Origin: an uncultured Blautia sp.
Lineage (GTDB): Bacteria > Bacillota > Clostridia > Lachnospirales > Lachnospiraceae
Assembly (NCBI GenBank): GCA_934426285.1
Contig: CAKRYE010000043.1
Location: 1 to 16,116 of the forward strand
Direction: 5' to 3'
DNA: 16,116 nucleotides
In this document: piece by piece, positions 2,763-14,721 of the stretch
Numbering within the stretch: position 1 is the first letter of the stretch
Layout of the letters: each line of letters starts with the position of its first letter
The notes under the pieces: generated by a model
Database searches by the model: none
What the model was told of the DNA's origin: nothing
Seen by the model: the letters and a program-made list of their open reading frames with translations, nothing else
Translations under genes and position numbers: made by a program

Positions 2763-2791
2763 TTGCACAGGTTGCGGTTGTGGTGTATAAT
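2763..2791 (+). promoter_or_regulatory. Probable promoter of the DUF5717/Hsp70-like/TPR operon
   Basis: A perfect -10 TATAAT (2786-2791) lies 17 bases after a weak -35 TTGCAC (2763-2768). The predicted start near 2798 leaves a leader of about 47 bases. No other good promoter is seen before the third gene ends, so all three genes probably share this one. Confidence 0.55.
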
Positions 2792-2844: not shown

Positions 2845-5800
2845 GTGAACAACTTGAAAAAGACGATAGAAGAACTCTTAAGTGGAAAATTCAGATATGA
2901 GCAGCCGGGACTTCTTTTTTCAAAAGAGAAAATTGAAGTGACACTGAAAGCCGGAGATGTATACAGGGGAGAACTGTATTTCGGGACAGAAGATAACCAG
3001 AGAATCCGCGGATATATTACATCTTCCAACAGGCGGGTTGTTCCGGGAACAGATCAGTTCACAGGGACGACAATACGTCTGCAATATGGGGTGGATGGTG
3101 TAGGAATGAATCCGGGTGACAGACATGAGGGCTGGCTGTGCTTTACCACCAATGTAGGAGAGTACAGGATTCCATTTGTGATCCAGGCTGAAAAGGAAGA
3201 GATGCACAGTGTGGCAGGCTCTGTAACGGATATGGATTCTTTTGTAAAAATCGCAAAAGAGGATTTTAAAGAAGCCTACCGTCTTTTTACAGATCCTGGA
3301 TTTCCAAGACTTCTGAAAAATGCAGGGACAAAGGAACTGGCTCTCTATAAAGGACTTTCCAGACAGCCTGTAACTTATCAGAATCTTGAGGAGTTTCTTG
3401 TGGGAACCGGACGGAAGAAACCGGTAAACATGGAATTAAAATTTGATCATAACAGCTTTTATGAAATTACAGAAACTGTGAGAGAGTCTTTTCCTGTACA
3501 TAAGGATGGTTGGGGACATTTAAGACTGGATATTGAGGCAAGAGGGGATTTCCTGGAAGTGCCGAAGTATGTGGTCACAGATGAGGACTTTATCGGTGGA
3601 TATTATCAGGTTGAGTATGTGATCCACAAAGAAGCTTTGCAGAAGGGACGGCAGTACGGGGAAATCCATGTAAAAAGCCCTTATCAGGAGCTGGTTTACA
3701 GAATTACAGCATCCGGCGGTCCTAAGGTACAGCTGAAGACCAGCCTTCATGAGAAACAGCAGAATTTTTCTTTGATGAAAGATTTTATGGAATACTCCTG
3801 CGGAAAAATGGAGCAGGGCACCTGGATCAGCAGTAGCCGTTTTCTGTTGAACCAGCTTCAGGAAGAAGGCTGTAATTATCCCAAATATCAGATGTATGAG
3901 GCATATCTCTGCCATGCGGAGGGAGAAGAAGAACAGGCAAAGGAAATCCTGCGCAGATTTAAGGATCAGACCTTCCTGCGGGAGGATCTGGAAATGGCAG
4001 GCGCTTACTTATATCTCTGTACCATTACCGGATTATACAGAGACAGAGAGCAGGCAGTGCGCAGGCTTCGCAATTTCTCCATGCAGAGAGAGGACAGCTT
4101 CCTGTTATTCTGGATTCTGCTTCAGGTGGATCAGGAGCTTAGGAATTCTCCGTCCAGAGCTGTGTTTATGATGGAGGAATTATTTGAAAAGGGCTGTCAC
4201 AATCCCCTTCTCTATCTGGAAGCCTGGAAATATATCAGTAAAGATATGTCTTTGTTACACAGAATGAGCAGCTTCTGGACCCAGGTTTTCCTCCTGGCAG
4301 GAAAAGAAGAAATGCTTACAGAGGAACTTGTAATGCGGTTCGCTTACCTGACCGGTTATGAGAAAAACTTCTGTCCAAGCATGTACCGTGCCCTGGCAGC
4401 AGGTTATGAAGCTTTTCCGGCAGATGATACTCTGGAAGCGATTTGCCGTTATATTATGTTGGGAAATCCGAGAGAACGAATCTATTTCCGCTGGTTTGCC
4501 CTGGCTGTTGAGCGAGGACTCAGGCTTACCAGATTGTATGAATATTATGTGGAGACGATGGATACCTCCTATCAGAGAGAACTGCCAAAGCCTCTTCTGA
4601 TGTATTTTACCTATAATAATAATTCCCTGGGTGATGATAAAAAAGCTTTTATTTATGCAAGTATTGTGGGAAATAAGGACGCACAGCCGGGAACCTATAG
4701 GGACTATCGGGAGAGTATGGCTGAATTTGCCGGTAAAAAGGCAGCAGAGGGCCGGATGGATGAGAATTACGCAGTACTTTATCAGGAATTTCTCACAGAA
4801 CCGGAGAACAGGGAACAGGCAGAGCTGATCGCAGGGAAAATGTTTACCTGCAGGTTGTACTGTGATGATAAAAAAATCCGTACGGTGATCGTACGTCATG
4901 ATAAATTCTCTATGGAGGAAGTCTATCCCTGTGTGCAGGGAGTAGCATATCCAAGGATTTATACAGAGGATGCAGTGATCCTTTTCCAGGATGAAAAACA
5001 GAGACGCTATTATGCAACGGTAGATTACAATGTTAAGAAGCTTTTTGATGAACGGGAGCTTGTGGAAAAGGTTCTGTCCCTGGGCGTAAGAGAGCCGGGG
5101 GTTCTGCTTCATTATTGTGTGAATGCAGAGTTAGGAAGGGATAATCTGGAATTATATCAGGAAGCTGCCAAGATGAAAGCATTTTCTGAAGGATACCGGA
5201 CAGAAATCCGGAGAAGTCTGCTGAAGTATTATGGGGAGGAAAACCCTGCAGGAGATCAGGAGGAATATCTGAAAAAGCTGGATTATAAGGAATATGCGGC
5301 AGCAGACAGGATACAGCTTCTGGAGGTGTTAATATCCAGAGGACTTTATTCTCAGGCTATGTCTGTGATCGAGGAATCCGGATATGAGGGAATCCGCCCG
5401 GAAAGCCTGCTGAAGCTTACCAGCAGGATGCTTACCAAATGTGAGATGGCTGAAGATGAGGAGTTGCTGGCTCTGGCTTCAGACGTATACAGAATGGGAA
5501 AATATGATGAGGTGATCCTGAAATATCTTATGGATTATCGCTTTGGACCATTGGATGAGCTGCTGTCAGTGTGGAAAAGCGCTCATGGCTTTGATATGGA
5601 TACCTATGAATTGGAAGAAAAGCTTTTGGGACTTCTGATGTTTACTTCTGATTATCGTAAAGAAGGAGAGAAGATCCTGGAGGATTATGTAAAGCATGCA
5701 GGCAAAGAATATCTGATCGGTGCTTACCTGACACAGATTGCTTATGGCGTGTTTGTGCGGGAATATCCTATGAGTATTTTTGTGCGTAATGAACTGGAGA

Positions 5801-6399
5801 CTGCCTGCAGGCAGAAATGGCCGGTGAATTTTATCTGCAGTCTGGCTCTCTTTGAGTCACTTTCCAGAGAGAAGAATCCAAGTCAGGATCAGCTGACTCT
5901 GGAAAAAGAGATTTTGCAGAAATGTATGAAGAAAAATCTGAAATTTGCATTTTTTAAAAGGCTTCCGGCGTCCATGCTGAGCCCTTATCAGCTGGATGAT
6001 AAAACCTTTGTAGAGTACCATACAGATCCGGCCGGAAAGGTGACTCTTTATTATGCTCTGGATGCTGGGCTGGGTGGAGAACTGAAATATCAGATGGAGC
6101 CCCTGCGTAATCTGTATGAGGGAATTTTTACCAAAACCTTTACGCTGTTTTACGGTGAAACTCTGCATTACTATTTCAAGGCTGAACTGGGGGAAAAAAC
6201 CTGGCAGACTCAGGAGCGTGTGATCACCATGGACAAGGTTGAGGGCATTCCGGTGAGCAAATATCAGCTGATCAATCAGATGCTTTCCGCCCGCAGACTG
6301 GATAACAGTCAGGAGGTAATGACGCAGCTGAAAAAATATCTTCGTCAGGAGCAGTATGTGAAGAGCATGTTTTCCATTGAAAAGGAATCTGGAAAATAG
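2845..6399 (+). CDS. Very large DUF5717-type protein: beta domains plus long helical repeat region
   Basis: The product has 1184 residues, no signal peptide and no membrane segment. I recall the family as DUF5717, found in Lachnospiraceae; its function is undescribed to my knowledge. Visible layout: a beta-sandwich-like domain (about 29-114), a second one (about 193-292, ending YGEIHVKSPYQELVYRI), a long alpha-helical solenoid with TPR-like character (about 300-1040) interrupted by a beta-rich insert (about 675-735), a third beta domain (about 1053-1130) and a helical tail. The start is GTG at 2845: an in-frame TAG lies immediately upstream and AGGGAA is 6 bases away. It is first of three tightly spaced genes (18 bases to the next). 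A scaffold or client-binding role with the Hsp70-like partner is inference only. Confidence 0.82.
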   Translation: MNNLKKTIEELLSGKFRYEQPGLLFSKEKIEVTLKAGDVYRGELYFGTEDNQRIRGYITSSNRRVVPGTDQFTGTTIRLQYGVDGVGMNPGDRHEGWLCFTTNVGEYRIPFVIQAEKEEMHSVAGSVTDMDSFVKIAKEDFKEAYRLFTDPGFPRLLKNAGTKELALYKGLSRQPVTYQNLEEFLVGTGRKKPVNMELKFDHNSFYEITETVRESFPVHKDGWGHLRLDIEARGDFLEVPKYVVTDEDFIGGYYQVEYVIHKEALQKGRQYGEIHVKSPYQELVYRITASGGPKVQLKTSLHEKQQNFSLMKDFMEYSCGKMEQGTWISSSRFLLNQLQEEGCNYPKYQMYEAYLCHAEGEEEQAKEILRRFKDQTFLREDLEMAGAYLYLCTITGLYRDREQAVRRLRNFSMQREDSFLLFWILLQVDQELRNSPSRAVFMMEELFEKGCHNPLLYLEAWKYISKDMSLLHRMSSFWTQVFLLAGKEEMLTEELVMRFAYLTGYEKNFCPSMYRALAAGYEAFPADDTLEAICRYIMLGNPRERIYFRWFALAVERGLRLTRLYEYYVETMDTSYQRELPKPLLMYFTYNNNSLGDDKKAFIYASIVGNKDAQPGTYRDYRESMAEFAGKKAAEGRMDENYAVLYQEFLTEPENREQAELIAGKMFTCRLYCDDKKIRTVIVRHDKFSMEEVYPCVQGVAYPRIYTEDAVILFQDEKQRRYYATVDYNVKKLFDERELVEKVLSLGVREPGVLLHYCVNAELGRDNLELYQEAAKMKAFSEGYRTEIRRSLLKYYGEENPAGDQEEYLKKLDYKEYAAADRIQLLEVLISRGLYSQAMSVIEESGYEGIRPESLLKLTSRMLTKCEMAEDEELLALASDVYRMGKYDEVILKYLMDYRFGPLDELLSVWKSAHGFDMDTYELEEKLLGLLMFTSDYRKEGEKILEDYVKHAGKEYLIGAYLTQIAYGVFVREYPMSIFVRNELETACRQKWPVNFICSLALFESLSREKNPSQDQLTLEKEILQKCMKKNLKFAFFKRLPASMLSPYQLDDKTFVEYHTDPAGKVTLYYALDAGLGGELKYQMEPLRNLYEGIFTKTFTLFYGETLHYYFKAELGEKTWQTQERVITMDKVEGIPVSKYQLINQMLSARRLDNSQEVMTQLKKYLRQEQYVKSMFSIEKESGK

Positions 6400-6417
6400 G
6401 AAAGACAGGAGAAACAG

Positions 6418-7665
6418 ATGAACGAAATCCGTGATTTGATCGTGGGAATTGATTTTGGCAGAGAATATTCCCAGATTTGTTATTATGACCGTAAAGGAGA
6501 GGAACCACGTTCTCTTTCCATGAAGGTGGGAGGAAGCCAGTATGAGGCACCTACCTGCCTGTGCAGGAGAACAGAGCAGAAGGATTACTGTGTAGGACTG
6601 GAAGCAGAGTATTTTGCCAGGGAAAAGGGAGGGATTATGATCCATGATCTCTACGGAATCTGCGAAAAAAAGGATTCCGTAGTGGTGGAAGGACAGGAAC
6701 ATGAGCCCTGGGAGCTGCTGACTGAATTTTTGAAAGGAATCCTGAAGTTTCTCGGTATCACTGAGCTGGTAAAAAATACGAAATGTATTGTAGTTACACT
6801 GGAGGATCTGGGAAATATCCAGGTGGAGAATTTTCGGAAGGCCTTTTCGTCCATGGGATTTCCGGAAGGAAAATATATGCTTCAGGATTACGGGGAAAGC
6901 TTTTATTATTATGCGCTTTCACAGAAAAGAGAAACCTGGAACCGCAGCGTTGCCTGGTACGCGTTCACTCCGGAAAATGTGTCTTTCCGGAAACTGACCT
7001 TAAACGGAAGTACGAAACCGGTATCTGTCAGACTGGAAGAACCTGTTGTCAGGGCACTTCCGGTCAATGATGAGGAAAGAGATATTGAATTCTGTAAATT
7101 TGTCCAGCAAACTCTGGGCAGGGATTTATATTCCAGCATTCAGATCACAGGCAGAGGTTTCTCACAGGATTGGGCCGGACAGTCCATAAAAATTCTTTGC
7201 TATCAGAAACGTAAGGTATTTTATGGAAATAACCTGTTTGCCAAAGGTGCCTGTGCTGCAGGTAAGGAAAAACTGGAAGATAAAGCGTTAAAAGGATACC
7301 GTTTCCTCAGTGATTCTCTTGTTATGGCAGATGTGGGAATGGAGATGCGTGTCATGGGTTCTCCGGCTTATTATCCTCTGATCGAAGCAGGAAACAATTG
7401 GTATGACTGCAAGGCATCCTGTGAATTGATCCTGGATAATACGGAAGAGCTGGTGTTTGTTGTGAGCACTTTTGACAGACCGGAGAAAAGACGTGTGGGT
7501 ATGATGCTTCCGGGAATTCCAAGGCGTCCAAACAAAACCACACGGCTTTATCTGGAATTGCAGTATATTTCTCCAAAAGAGTGTAAAGTAACAGTGAAGG
7601 ATCTGGGATTTGGGGAATTGTTTCCGTCCTGCGGTAAGGTATGGACAGAGACAGTAGAATGGTAA
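6418..7665 (+). CDS. Hsp70/actin-fold protein (DUF5716-like), lidless and divergent
   Basis: The 415-residue protein looks like a shortened Hsp70. Phosphate-1 motif: GIDFGREYS (10-18). The second subdomain start (about 120-170, KCIVVTLEDL then YMLQDYGESFYYYALS) mirrors the ATPase-domain pattern of strand, helix and EPTAAAL-like helix. TGRGF (244-248) and NNLFAKGACAAG correspond to the adenosine site and final ATPase helix. Residues about 335-410 resemble the substrate-binding beta domain, including LPGIPRRP (364-371). The usual DLGGGT phosphate-2 motif is replaced by a segment near SVAWYAFTPENVS (177-189), so ATP hydrolysis may be weak or lost. No helical lid follows. AGGAG lies 6 bases before the ATG. 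I recall the family as DUF5716; function unknown. Confidence 0.8.
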   Translation: MNEIRDLIVGIDFGREYSQICYYDRKGEEPRSLSMKVGGSQYEAPTCLCRRTEQKDYCVGLEAEYFAREKGGIMIHDLYGICEKKDSVVVEGQEHEPWELLTEFLKGILKFLGITELVKNTKCIVVTLEDLGNIQVENFRKAFSSMGFPEGKYMLQDYGESFYYYALSQKRETWNRSVAWYAFTPENVSFRKLTLNGSTKPVSVRLEEPVVRALPVNDEERDIEFCKFVQQTLGRDLYSSIQITGRGFSQDWAGQSIKILCYQKRKVFYGNNLFAKGACAAGKEKLEDKALKGYRFLSDSLVMADVGMEMRVMGSPAYYPLIEAGNNWYDCKASCELILDNTEELVFVVSTFDRPEKRRVGMMLPGIPRRPNKTTRLYLELQYISPKECKVTVKDLGFGELFPSCGKVWTETVEW

Positions 7666-7678
7666 AGGAGACAGACAG

Positions 7679-8461
7679 ATGAGTGGATATATTTTATGCC
7701 AGACAAAAAAAGCAGAGCGTCCGTATTTTATAGAGAATATCAGTACGAATATTTATTCTGTAGAAGAGCTTTGCTACTATCTGTACCATAACCTTTATCT
7801 GATAGATAAAACCATCATCAATGAAGAGCTTTGTATCTGGATAGGAGAAGAATTGAATCTGCCCGGACTGGCAGCAAAGATCAGGCAATTTCTGGGACAG
7901 GATATCCATGTAGATGATGTGATCTATCCGGTATTTAAGGAAATTAATTATCTTACCTATGAGGAATTAAAAGCACTTAACAGCAGACTGGTGCTGATAA
8001 GTAAGGAAAGTGCAGATATGCGTCAGAAGCAAAAGGGAGATTCCCTGATGGAAAACGGAATGTATGTAAATGCTATCCGGGTATATCAGAAGCTTCTTGA
8101 GAGGACAGATCTGGAGGAGCAGAGGAAGGGATTTGTGTCCGATGTATGGCATAACCTGGGATGCGCCTACAGTTATCTTTTCCAGATGGAGAAAGCCATG
8201 GAGTGTTTTTATCACGCATGGGAAAAGACGCAATCTCCGAAAGAATTAAAGGCATATCTGTTGTCATACCGGAGCATCCGTTCCGGGGCTGAGTATGAAA
8301 AGGAACTGGTCAGACTTGAGGCAACAGATGAGATCAAAGAGGATATACAGAATGCTTTGAAACAATTTGCTGCTGTTCCCGAACCTGCCCTGGAAGAAAA
8401 GGATGTGGACAGTACGCTTGCAAAGCTTACTGCAGGATATCACAGGAGTACAGGTTCCTGA
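7679..8461 (+). CDS. TPR-containing protein, third gene of the Hsp70-like operon
   Basis: The 260-residue cytoplasmic protein has an N-terminal helical region (about 25-110, rich in Tyr, Leu and Glu), then two clear tetratricopeptide-like units (about 118-139 and 156-189; the second has WHNLGCAYSYLFQMEKAMECF), then a charged tail. TPRs bind peptides or partner proteins, and TPR co-factors are common partners of Hsp70 proteins. The ribosome binding site AAGGAG overlaps the stop codon of the preceding gene and the ATG is 13 bases downstream of it, so translation is probably coupled. No terminator is visible before the next promoter at 8498. I do not recognise a named family for the N-terminal part. 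Confidence 0.8.
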   Translation: MSGYILCQTKKAERPYFIENISTNIYSVEELCYYLYHNLYLIDKTIINEELCIWIGEELNLPGLAAKIRQFLGQDIHVDDVIYPVFKEINYLTYEELKALNSRLVLISKESADMRQKQKGDSLMENGMYVNAIRVYQKLLERTDLEEQRKGFVSDVWHNLGCAYSYLFQMEKAMECFYHAWEKTQSPKELKAYLLSYRSIRSGAEYEKELVRLEATDEIKEDIQNALKQFAAVPEPALEEKDVDSTLAKLTAGYHRSTGS

Positions 8462-8497
8462 TACAACAAAATCCTCTGACTATTTAAAAAAGAAGGG

Positions 8498-8526
8498 TTG
8501 ACAGCCATGTGGGCTTATGTTAGGAT
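8498..8526 (+). promoter_or_regulatory. Promoter of the amino acid ABC transporter operon
   Basis: A perfect -35 TTGACA (8498-8503), a 17-base spacer and an extended -10 TGTTAGGAT (TG at 8518-8519, hexamer 8521-8526). It lies 37 bases after the TPR gene. Transcription would begin near 8533, giving a 60-base leader. Confidence 0.7.
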
Positions 8527-8595
8527 AAACACATACTTTCACGTGGTAGAGTGACTGCGTGATAAAGAAAAATAGATGAAGAGGAGATGTTTATC

Positions 8596-13878: not shown

Positions 13879-13896
13879 ATCTTGGAGAGGTATAAA

Positions 13897-14721
13897 ATGA
13901 AAAATAATAAAAAGAAACAGATTGGAGCATGGATTGCCATTATTGTCCTGCTTCTGGCAGCGTGCATGCCCATGTTTTTTGCTTTTGGCAAGGGCGAAAA
14001 TGCTGGTAATTATTTCCGGGCAGCAATTGGAGTTGCCATTATTGTCCCTGTCCTTGCTTATGCAATGTGGATGGTTTACAGGATACTGGACCGTGATAAA
14101 AAGAAAGAGAGGAATTCAGTGGTGGAAAATATTATTTTTGATGTAGGTAAGGTGCTGGTTAAATTTGAATGGGAGGCCTATCTGGACAGCTTTGGATTTA
14201 CACCGGAGAAAAGGAATAAGATCGCAAAAGCTGTATTTCTCAGTGATACATGGAATGAACGTGACAGGGGAAGCTATGAGGAAGAGTATTATGTGGATCA
14301 GATGGTGAAAGCAGCGCCGGATTGTGAAGCGGAAATCCGGGCTGTAATGAAGGACTCCGGTAAAACCATTGAAAAGATGGAGTATGCAGATACCTGGGTG
14401 CGCTATCTGAAAGATAAGGGATATAAAGTCTATATTTTATCTAATTATGGAAATGAGACCATGCGAATGACAAAACAGAAACTTACGTTCCTGAAATATG
14501 TAGACGGAGCGGTTTTCTCCTGTGATGTAAAGCAGATTAAACCAGAACCGGAAATATACCGGACTTTGATCGAACGTTATCATCTGGATCCTGAGAAATC
14601 TGTTTTTCTGGATGACAGAAAAGAAAATTGTGAAGCTGCAGAGAAGTTTGGAATTCATGCTATTCAATTCCATTCCTTTAAGCAGGGAACAGCAGAACTG
14701 GAGAAACTGGGAGTAAAGTAG
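13897..14721 (+). CDS. HAD-family phosphatase with two N-terminal membrane segments
   Basis: The 274-residue protein has two hydrophobic spans (about 10-30 and 40-61), a Lys/Arg-rich linker and a complete HAD hydrolase domain (about 76-274). The HAD motifs are visible: nucleophile Asp82 in IIFDVGKVLV, Ser182 in YILSNYGNE, Lys215 in QIKPEP, and Asp239/Asp240 in VFLDDRKEN. The glycine two residues after Asp82 is as in YihX-type sugar-phosphate phosphatases (FDLGNV), so a small phosphorylated metabolite is the likely substrate. The start is ATG 13897, 6 bases after GGAGAGG; a TTG at 13882 overlaps that site. Membrane anchoring of this domain is unusual, and GTG codons at 14119/14122 behind GAGAGG could give a soluble form. 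Confidence 0.85.
   Translation: MKNNKKKQIGAWIAIIVLLLAACMPMFFAFGKGENAGNYFRAAIGVAIIVPVLAYAMWMVYRILDRDKKKERNSVVENIIFDVGKVLVKFEWEAYLDSFGFTPEKRNKIAKAVFLSDTWNERDRGSYEEEYYVDQMVKAAPDCEAEIRAVMKDSGKTIEKMEYADTWVRYLKDKGYKVYILSNYGNETMRMTKQKLTFLKYVDGAVFSCDVKQIKPEPEIYRTLIERYHLDPEKSVFLDDRKENCEAAEKFGIHAIQFHSFKQGTAELEKLGVK

Follow-up and report, generated by a model that had tools for sequence, protein, structure and literature searches.

A 16,116-nucleotide stretch from an uncultured Blautia sp. (contig CAKRYE010000043.1; the whole stretch is called the window below) carries three adjacent genes, here the trio, that encode a DUF5717 protein, a DUF5716 protein and a tetratricopeptide repeat (TPR) protein. The DUF5716 protein is an Hsp70 homologue consisting of a nucleotide-binding domain (NBD) and the beta part of the substrate-binding domain (SBD-beta). 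On balance, sequence comparisons incline us to read the trio as a reduced, ATPase-free scaffold or holdase that would have descended from a dedicated multi-Hsp70 machine, of which we identified an expanded operon in other genomes of the order.

All three genes are on the forward strand, to which the coordinates below refer unless stated otherwise. Gene 1 (2845..6399) has a GTG start and encodes the scaffold-like DUF5717 protein of 1184 amino acids, gene 2 (6418..7665) encodes the DUF5716 protein, a probable lidless pseudo-Hsp70 of 415 amino acids, and gene 3 (7679..8461) encodes the TPR protein of 260 amino acids. The gaps are 18 and 13 bases; gene 2 is preceded by the ribosome-binding site AGGAG (6407..6411), and that of gene 3 (AAAGGAG, 7664..7670) overlaps the TAA stop of gene 2 (7663-7665). 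Hydropathy stays below the threshold for a membrane or signal segment throughout all three proteins. An original prediction made from the letters of this DNA had described this arrangement, the lack of export signals, and the products as beta-plus-solenoid, Hsp70-like and TPR proteins, the first two being domains of unknown function; all of these descriptions hold, the last by Pfam (DUF5717_N, DUF5717 and DUF5716_C).

Hsp70 descent of the DUF5716 protein

The gene 2 product matches PF18980 (DUF5716_C) with an E-value (E) of 2e-97 (326.2 bits, cut-off 34.7) and has no match to PF00012 (Hsp70) at E up to 1. Its fold, together with profile comparison with controls, identifies an Hsp70/actin-type NBD. 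This is followed by an SBD-beta, for which hhalign against DnaK reaches the end of the DnaK domain (local alignment to template column 479), giving an SBD-beta-like C-terminal domain at residues 300-415 (7315..7662); residues 292-330 of the structure model are below 50 in the predicted local distance difference test (pLDDT). The protein ends with the SBD-beta and the alpha-helical lid is absent. The DnaK profile used for hhalign comprised 12 open reading frames (ORFs) from six genomes, including duplicates of three genes and three HscC-like ORFs. No solved homologue was found by sequence with the DUF5716 protein alone as the query, and an NKG2-D structure obtained with an alignment as the query was rejected (E 0.41 only). 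DUF5716 matches no plasmid record.

In the phosphate-1 loop (GIDFGREYSQ, residues 10-19; 6445..6474), G10 and D12 are kept and the threonines are replaced; among the 81 loci described below, G10 is found in 81/81 and D12 in 79/81. The slot of the phosphate-2 loop (residues 180-192, WYAFTPENVSFRK; 6955..6993) has lost the DLGGGTFD motif. At the columns of the E. coli catalytic residues, K70 is lysine in 2/69 proteins, E171 is glutamate in 0/81, D194 is aspartate in 20/81 and T199 is threonine in 8/81, counts tied to the hhalign register (in the next two columns after the E171 slot, glutamate occurs in 4/81 and 0/81); the window protein has E64, Q156, A182 and N187 in these slots. About 75 residues are missing at the place of what we take to be subdomain IIB. 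Lacking the lid, subdomain IIB and the catalytic motifs, DUF5716 is probably a pseudo-Hsp70.

A GxGF motif at the adenosine-loop position is conserved. Together with the nearly invariant phosphate-1 glycine and aspartate, it could mean that DUF5716 still binds nucleotide and serves as a conformational or assembly switch, like other members of the actin/Hsp70 fold, with no chaperone function. We regard such a switch as improbable, given the loss of the phosphate-2 loop, the catalytic lysine, E171 and the subdomain IIB segment, and because the fold alone may explain the conserved glycines.

An expanded operon in the order

As a rule, Hsp70s act as general chaperones with J-proteins and GrpE as their partners. 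In a sample of the order, DUF5716_C matches occur in 89 of 196 genomes, 24 of them strong (E 2e-49 or better) and 65 weaker, and many of the weaker genomes have two neighbouring matches in ORFs of about 500-560 amino acids. We fetched 16 of these loci, one from G639 (strong) and 15 from the 65 weaker genomes, hand-picked and mostly with the better scores; the group of genomes given by G handles is known only from the sample of origin. The expanded gene order is solenoid (S), Hsp70-A, GrpE-domain protein (G), DUF5716 protein (P), Hsp70-B, Hsp70-C and TPR protein (T), sometimes followed by a protein with two transmembrane segments (two-TM; M). The products are of 554-576 (A), 279-645 (G), 457-542 (P), 539-586 (B), 690-727 (C) and 382-396 (T) amino acids.

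All of S-A-G-P-B-C-T could be recognised, in that order, in 11/16 loci, with additional ORFs intervening in some of them; L169 nearly duplicates L164. The gene set of L154 (G639) is the same, but its C and T frames are broken. The ORFs in the P and T positions of L168 could not be recognised, and L158, L159 and L160 show only part of the set, together with inserted genes or the end of the region. The two-TM gene lies at the end of the operon in four of the 16 (L154, L165, L167 and L168). The TPR and Hsp70-C frames of L154 are in pieces at 4208-5231 and 5343-7384, where decay and sequencing error are indistinguishable. In L169, a repeated peptide (FNSTIVRLN) in minus-strand ORFs at 16059-17976 suggests a CRISPR-like repeat array beyond the operon.

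Each of the 12 G proteins scanned has a C-terminal Pfam GrpE match above cut-off (E 4e-6 to 9e-15), and a vWA family is above cut-off after the Hsp70 part in 11/11 C proteins scanned. In L164, A and B match HSP70, and P matches both HSP70 (E 1.4e-17) and DUF5716_C; along the 599 positions of the profile, the HSP70 match runs to 493 in A, 477 in B, 514 in C and 437 in P, short of the lid. A, B and C all retain the phosphate-1, E171 and phosphate-2 motifs (GTTHS in two B rows), and the K70 lysine is present in 13/14 A proteins (one has R), 13/13 C proteins and 0/16 B proteins. Proteins resembling P are annotated as DUF5716 or Hsp70 family in public records of Defluviitalea phaphyphila, Epulopiscium, Defluviitaleaceae and one Turicibacter metagenome-assembled genome.

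The original prediction had proposed a chaperone-like or assembly machine separate from DnaK/DnaJ/GrpE, with neither GrpE nor a J-domain in its cluster, an interpretation that is partly supported. A dedicated multi-Hsp70 locus does exist in relatives, but an active chaperone role is unlikely for the trio, because DUF5716 has lost the ATPase motifs and the lid. GrpE is indeed missing from the window's cluster, whereas the relatives' cluster carries a GrpE-domain protein. As predicted, no J-domain match was obtained in the ORFs of the trio or expanded loci read, with one query sequence. The separateness also stands: trio genomes carry dnaK and grpE elsewhere, and canonical DnaK and GrpE are encoded besides the operon's own in all four expanded genomes checked (G669, G745, G639 and G656). 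The trio genomes G001 and G032 have a canonical DnaK, one GrpE and no second full-length Hsp70, and G208 (L112, L117 and L122) has three more Hsp70s outside the locus, which are nearer to DnaK than to A, B or C.

The trio could be a co-chaperone that feeds or regulates this housekeeping DnaK, as Ssz1-Zuo1 serves Ssb, DnaK having replaced the lost operon Hsp70s. Ssz1 is lidless, binds ATP without hydrolysis and takes a pseudo-substrate and nascent chains in its SBD-beta (according to excerpts of PMC7083937); the SBD-beta residues of DUF5716 are highly conserved, and DnaK and GrpE are kept in G001 and G032. However, Zuo1 provides Ssz1 with a J-domain, for which the single-query search gave nothing in the loci read, the link between the trio and DnaK is one of common descent only, and the window has no match to the controlling inverted repeat of chaperone expression (CIRCE) with up to 3 mismatches allowed. 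We consider this role rather unlikely. Heat-shock control of the HrcA type through CIRCE was likewise rejected for lack of an element in the window; the exact pattern was found in 0/153 loci, a test too strict to be informative, as dnaK loci among these are also without it.

Direction of change

P matches both the trio DUF5716 (E 1.6e-69) and DnaK (E 1.2e-41) and thus bridges the two. The IQ-TREE phylogeny, drawn midpoint-rooted and read with Hsp70-B as the outgroup, used 27 of 80 trio proteins and left out the collected A and C rows and the near-copy L169. The 27 trio rows form one clade (100/98), which together with P of L154 is split from all else at 100/100. Next to these are P of L165 and L167 (98/97), and then the other expanded P rows. 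Since the trio falls within the expanded operons in this tree, it has most likely arisen by reduction, with loss of the ATPases and the exchange factor. On the simplest interpretation, the expanded operon is the older form and underwent a single reduction. A valyl-tRNA synthetase gene adjoins some trio loci (L098 by Pfam, L057 and L093 through its cluster) as well as the expanded loci L154, L165 and L168 (read by eye), and this shared neighbour fits reduction in place.

Conservation and distribution of the trio

A DUF5716 alignment run against one genome per species yielded 66 loci, and a class-wide search added 16 regions, for a total of 82. L104 (G324, class sample), which has a sub-cut-off PF18980 match and no family gene, was left out, giving 81 loci. 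All three genes occur in the same order and on the same strand in 79 of these, some counted as complete although DUF5717 is cut by the contig end; ORF gaps range from -185 to 147 bases, most within a few tens. Since the loci were picked by DUF5716 alone, the neighbourhood is an independent observation, and it bears out the expectation that the three are conserved together. The exceptions are L054, in which the contig ends inside DUF5716, and L037, with no DUF5717 in 8.4 kb upstream. At L037:8436-10499, the DUF5716 and TPR genes lie downstream of ORFs that look phage- or integrase-like by eye, possibly owing to an insertion or a chimeric contig.

DUF5716 is above cut-off in 244/250 genomes of the family of G001 (Blautia wexlerae, the genome of L002), in 16/391 genomes of the class sample, 4/299 of the phylum sample and 0/14 control genomes, and DUF5717 is found in the same 16 of the 391. 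Copy number is one in 239 of the 244 family genomes; two DUF5716_C matches each occur in G521, G529, G594, G614 and G636. That almost every family member sampled has the locus speaks for a housekeeping role, and the near-universality of DUF5716 (244/250) in a dominant gut lineage makes the trio a core protein set without an assigned function. Against Blautia relatives, the ratio of nonsynonymous to synonymous divergence (dN/dS) is 0.064-0.163 in the 7/12 comparisons with unsaturated dS (dS is saturated in 5/12); the trio genes are under purifying selection. Conservation of the trio and dN/dS rule out chance ORFs.

These genes might be co-inherited and co-transcribed without their products forming one complex, and transporter and purine neighbours do also stay close in many Blautia loci. 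However, the flanking genes differ among loci while the trio is constant, and the reduction has left solenoid, DUF5716 and TPR together, which leaves such a loose association with very little probability.

The distribution bears as well on a role in immunity, in which the locus would be related to GTPase-centred, membrane-associated systems of HSP70, GrpE and TPR or DnaJ fusions (theme 2 of GAP1-N2). Their parts are similar, including HSP70, GrpE, a second HSP70 without peptide-binding domain, TPR and membrane proteins (PMC7159879, as far as the excerpted text goes). Nevertheless, neither a GTPase nor a GAP1 family was found among the window trio and 29 expanded-operon proteins of 13 loci, the flanking ORFs being only partly scanned, and PADLOC gave no match for four proteins. 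A locus that is near-universal and mostly single-copy in the family is also unlike patchy defence genes, and we find a conflict system quite implausible. Annotation as a defence system was rejected on the PADLOC result; NCBIfam and PADLOC hold nothing for the trio proteins.

The DUF5717, TPR and two-TM proteins

The gene 1 product matches PF18984 (E 7.3e-259, 861.6 bits) and PF18983 (E 3.5e-95, 319.1 bits), both with a cut-off of 25, and carries the Pfam names DUF5717_N and DUF5717. Its structure model (mean pLDDT 87.8, predicted template modelling score 0.61) is that of two ASH/PapD-like beta domains followed by an alpha-solenoid. In the model, a first ASH/PapD/MSP-like beta-sandwich spans residues 19-117 (2899..3195) and a second, Ig-like one residues 192-292 (3418..3720). 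The predicted solenoid has a first half at residues 299-663 (3739..4833; DSSP of the model) and a second at 736-1048 (5050..5988), separated by a beta insert at 668-732 (4846..5040). A C-terminal beta domain with helices is placed at residues 1053-1175 (6001..6369) by Pfam and the model. Foldseek gave weak matches of the solenoid to Ski3/Ctr9/Naa15-type solenoids; kinship with the ciliary central pair was rejected, and those structural matches were put down to common ASH domains. Ten loci of one clade (L055, L056, L058-L064 and L066) have a DUF5717 without residues ~203-474 plus a DUF5716 without residues 47-98.

The gene 3 product is a TPR protein by Pfam, whose N-terminal ~115 residues are conserved and whose TPR-type repeats follow residue 118. 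Sequence searches for a solved homologue returned generic TPR matches only, and none was accepted. Among the 15 family loci from the class sample (G001 was not refetched), 12 have a two-TM gene within 55 bases 3' of the TPR gene (L089-L092, L094-L100 and L102; e.g., L091:10394-11584). The two-TM protein is 390-504 amino acids long; its two hydrophobic segments are adjacent, and its halves look coiled-coil-like by eye. No Pfam family was above cut-off in four members scanned, and a keratin coiled coil was rejected as a solved homologue (E 0.099). A profile search found the protein in 109/250 family genomes, some possibly having been missed at the first pass, and its gene is at most 3 kb from DUF5716 on the same contig in 64 of the 65 genomes with both places listed.

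Proposed function

We infer that the trio proteins form one complex. At the corresponding locus, other lineages of the order have the solenoid, Hsp70-A and Hsp70-C with intact ATPase motifs, Hsp70-B without the catalytic lysine, DUF5716, the GrpE-domain and TPR proteins and sometimes the two-TM protein, of which the window's lineage would have retained the solenoid, the pseudo-Hsp70 and the TPR protein. DUF5717 could form a long scaffold arm on which DUF5716 docks as a fixed, lidless Hsp70. By analogy with Ssz1, its SBD-beta may hold an extended segment of a partner or client with no ATP-driven cycling. The TPR protein could bridge to further partners, and the two-TM protein, where present, may tie the assembly to the membrane.

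A broader proposal, which we put forward only tentatively, is that Lachnospirales have an undescribed heteromeric chaperone-type machine. Its parts might be up to four different lidless Hsp70s (two ATPase-competent by motif and two pseudo), a GrpE-type exchange factor of its own, a TPR adaptor, a vWA domain, a two-TM membrane anchor and a giant ASH-solenoid scaffold. In Lachnospiraceae, it would have been cut to a permanent pseudo-Hsp70 core that is a near-universal housekeeping component.

Several points weigh against the scaffold or holdase reading. Such an action is read from lost motifs and a predicted fold, and DUF5716 may bind ATP without hydrolysing it. The two-TM protein is absent beside the window trio, and its profile matches nothing in the ORFs of the 66 one-genome-per-species loci or in G001, so that the window's relatives are without it at this place; with only 109/250 family genomes having it, tethering to the membrane could be general only if there were another anchor. 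In the tree, the branching order of the deepest expanded rows is uncertain, as some long branches come together (L165 with L167, L057 with L102) and the composition of seven rows is unusual. Lastly, the joint shortening of DUF5717 and DUF5716 has counter-examples: L101 and L102 are gapped in the same DUF5716 region, yet their DUF5717 is full-length, and L103 is without DUF5717 residues 8-295, yet its DUF5716 is full.

Control elements and neighbouring genes

The single promoter of the original prediction may correspond to a sigma-70-like site 5' of gene 1 (TGCACA-16-TATAAT, 2764..2791). It is a consensus match only, and a better promoter-like site with an equal score (TTGACC-18-TATATT, 2684-2713) lies farther upstream. 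Such consensus matches number 19 in the 6.7 kb scanned, compared with 12.5 expected from shuffles. The scan of the window listed no terminator-like site in 8462-8586; the gene downstream of the trio has a promoter-like site in front of it (8498-8526). The transporter and purine genes 3' of the trio match two Blautia loci (L001 and L002) at 93-96%, by which the window most likely belongs to Blautia or to a near relative; these genes are also nearby in many Blautia loci. A divergent minus-strand gene at 1849-2658 encodes choline-binding repeats and a transglutaminase-like domain (Pfam). The gene at 13882-14721 encodes a HAD-family hydrolase whose N-terminus, by eye, has two hydrophobic segments, an unusual membrane-anchored arrangement.

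Comparison with known systems

The DUF families in Pfam, the name DUF5716 in public annotation and the marking of expanded P proteins as HSP70 plus DUF5716_C were already known. The window proteins are members of these families, whose Pfam names and descriptions give no function. New here are the Hsp70 descent of the trio DUF5716, the expanded operon, the GrpE-domain partner and the two-TM protein. We found nothing on DUF5716, DUF5717, the trio's Hsp70 descent or the history of the operon in the open-access papers searched, most subscription journals being outside these. If our reading is true, an Hsp70 has been turned into a structural subunit in bacteria, where several specialised lidless Hsp70s are encoded with a private GrpE-domain protein and a scaffold, and the descendant is left with the catalytically degenerate member alone. 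The expanded form tells which proteins to purify together and what to delete, which opens the question to direct tests.

The nearest published parts list that we found is the HSP70/GrpE theme of the GAP1-N2 GTPase-centric systems (Kaur et al. 2020, PMC7159879), which, in the excerpts used, shares HSP70, GrpE, a degenerate second HSP70, TPR and membrane association. Those systems are built on a GTPase and GAP1 and are patchy, whereas the present locus is family-wide and has neither family in the proteins scanned. DnaK and other canonical Hsp70s (PF00012) are homologous by profile and share with DUF5716 the NBD fold, the phosphate-1 glycine and aspartate and the SBD-beta that follows. Unlike DnaK, DUF5716 is without the lid, most of subdomain IIB, the phosphate-2 motif, the catalytic lysine, E171 and a PF00012 match.

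Among these systems we liken DUF5716 to Ssz1, a subunit of the yeast ribosome-associated complex. At the ribosome, Ssz1 is paired with the J-protein Zuo1, and it binds ATP, whereas the ATP-site motifs of DUF5716 are degraded and no J-domain was found near the trio with one query sequence; a partner could be encoded elsewhere. Ssz1 is a lidless, non-hydrolysing Hsp70 homologue held in a fixed complex, with an SBD-beta that binds a partner motif and nascent chains (PMC7083937, from the excerpted text), as we propose that DUF5716 may do with a partner or client on its scaffold.

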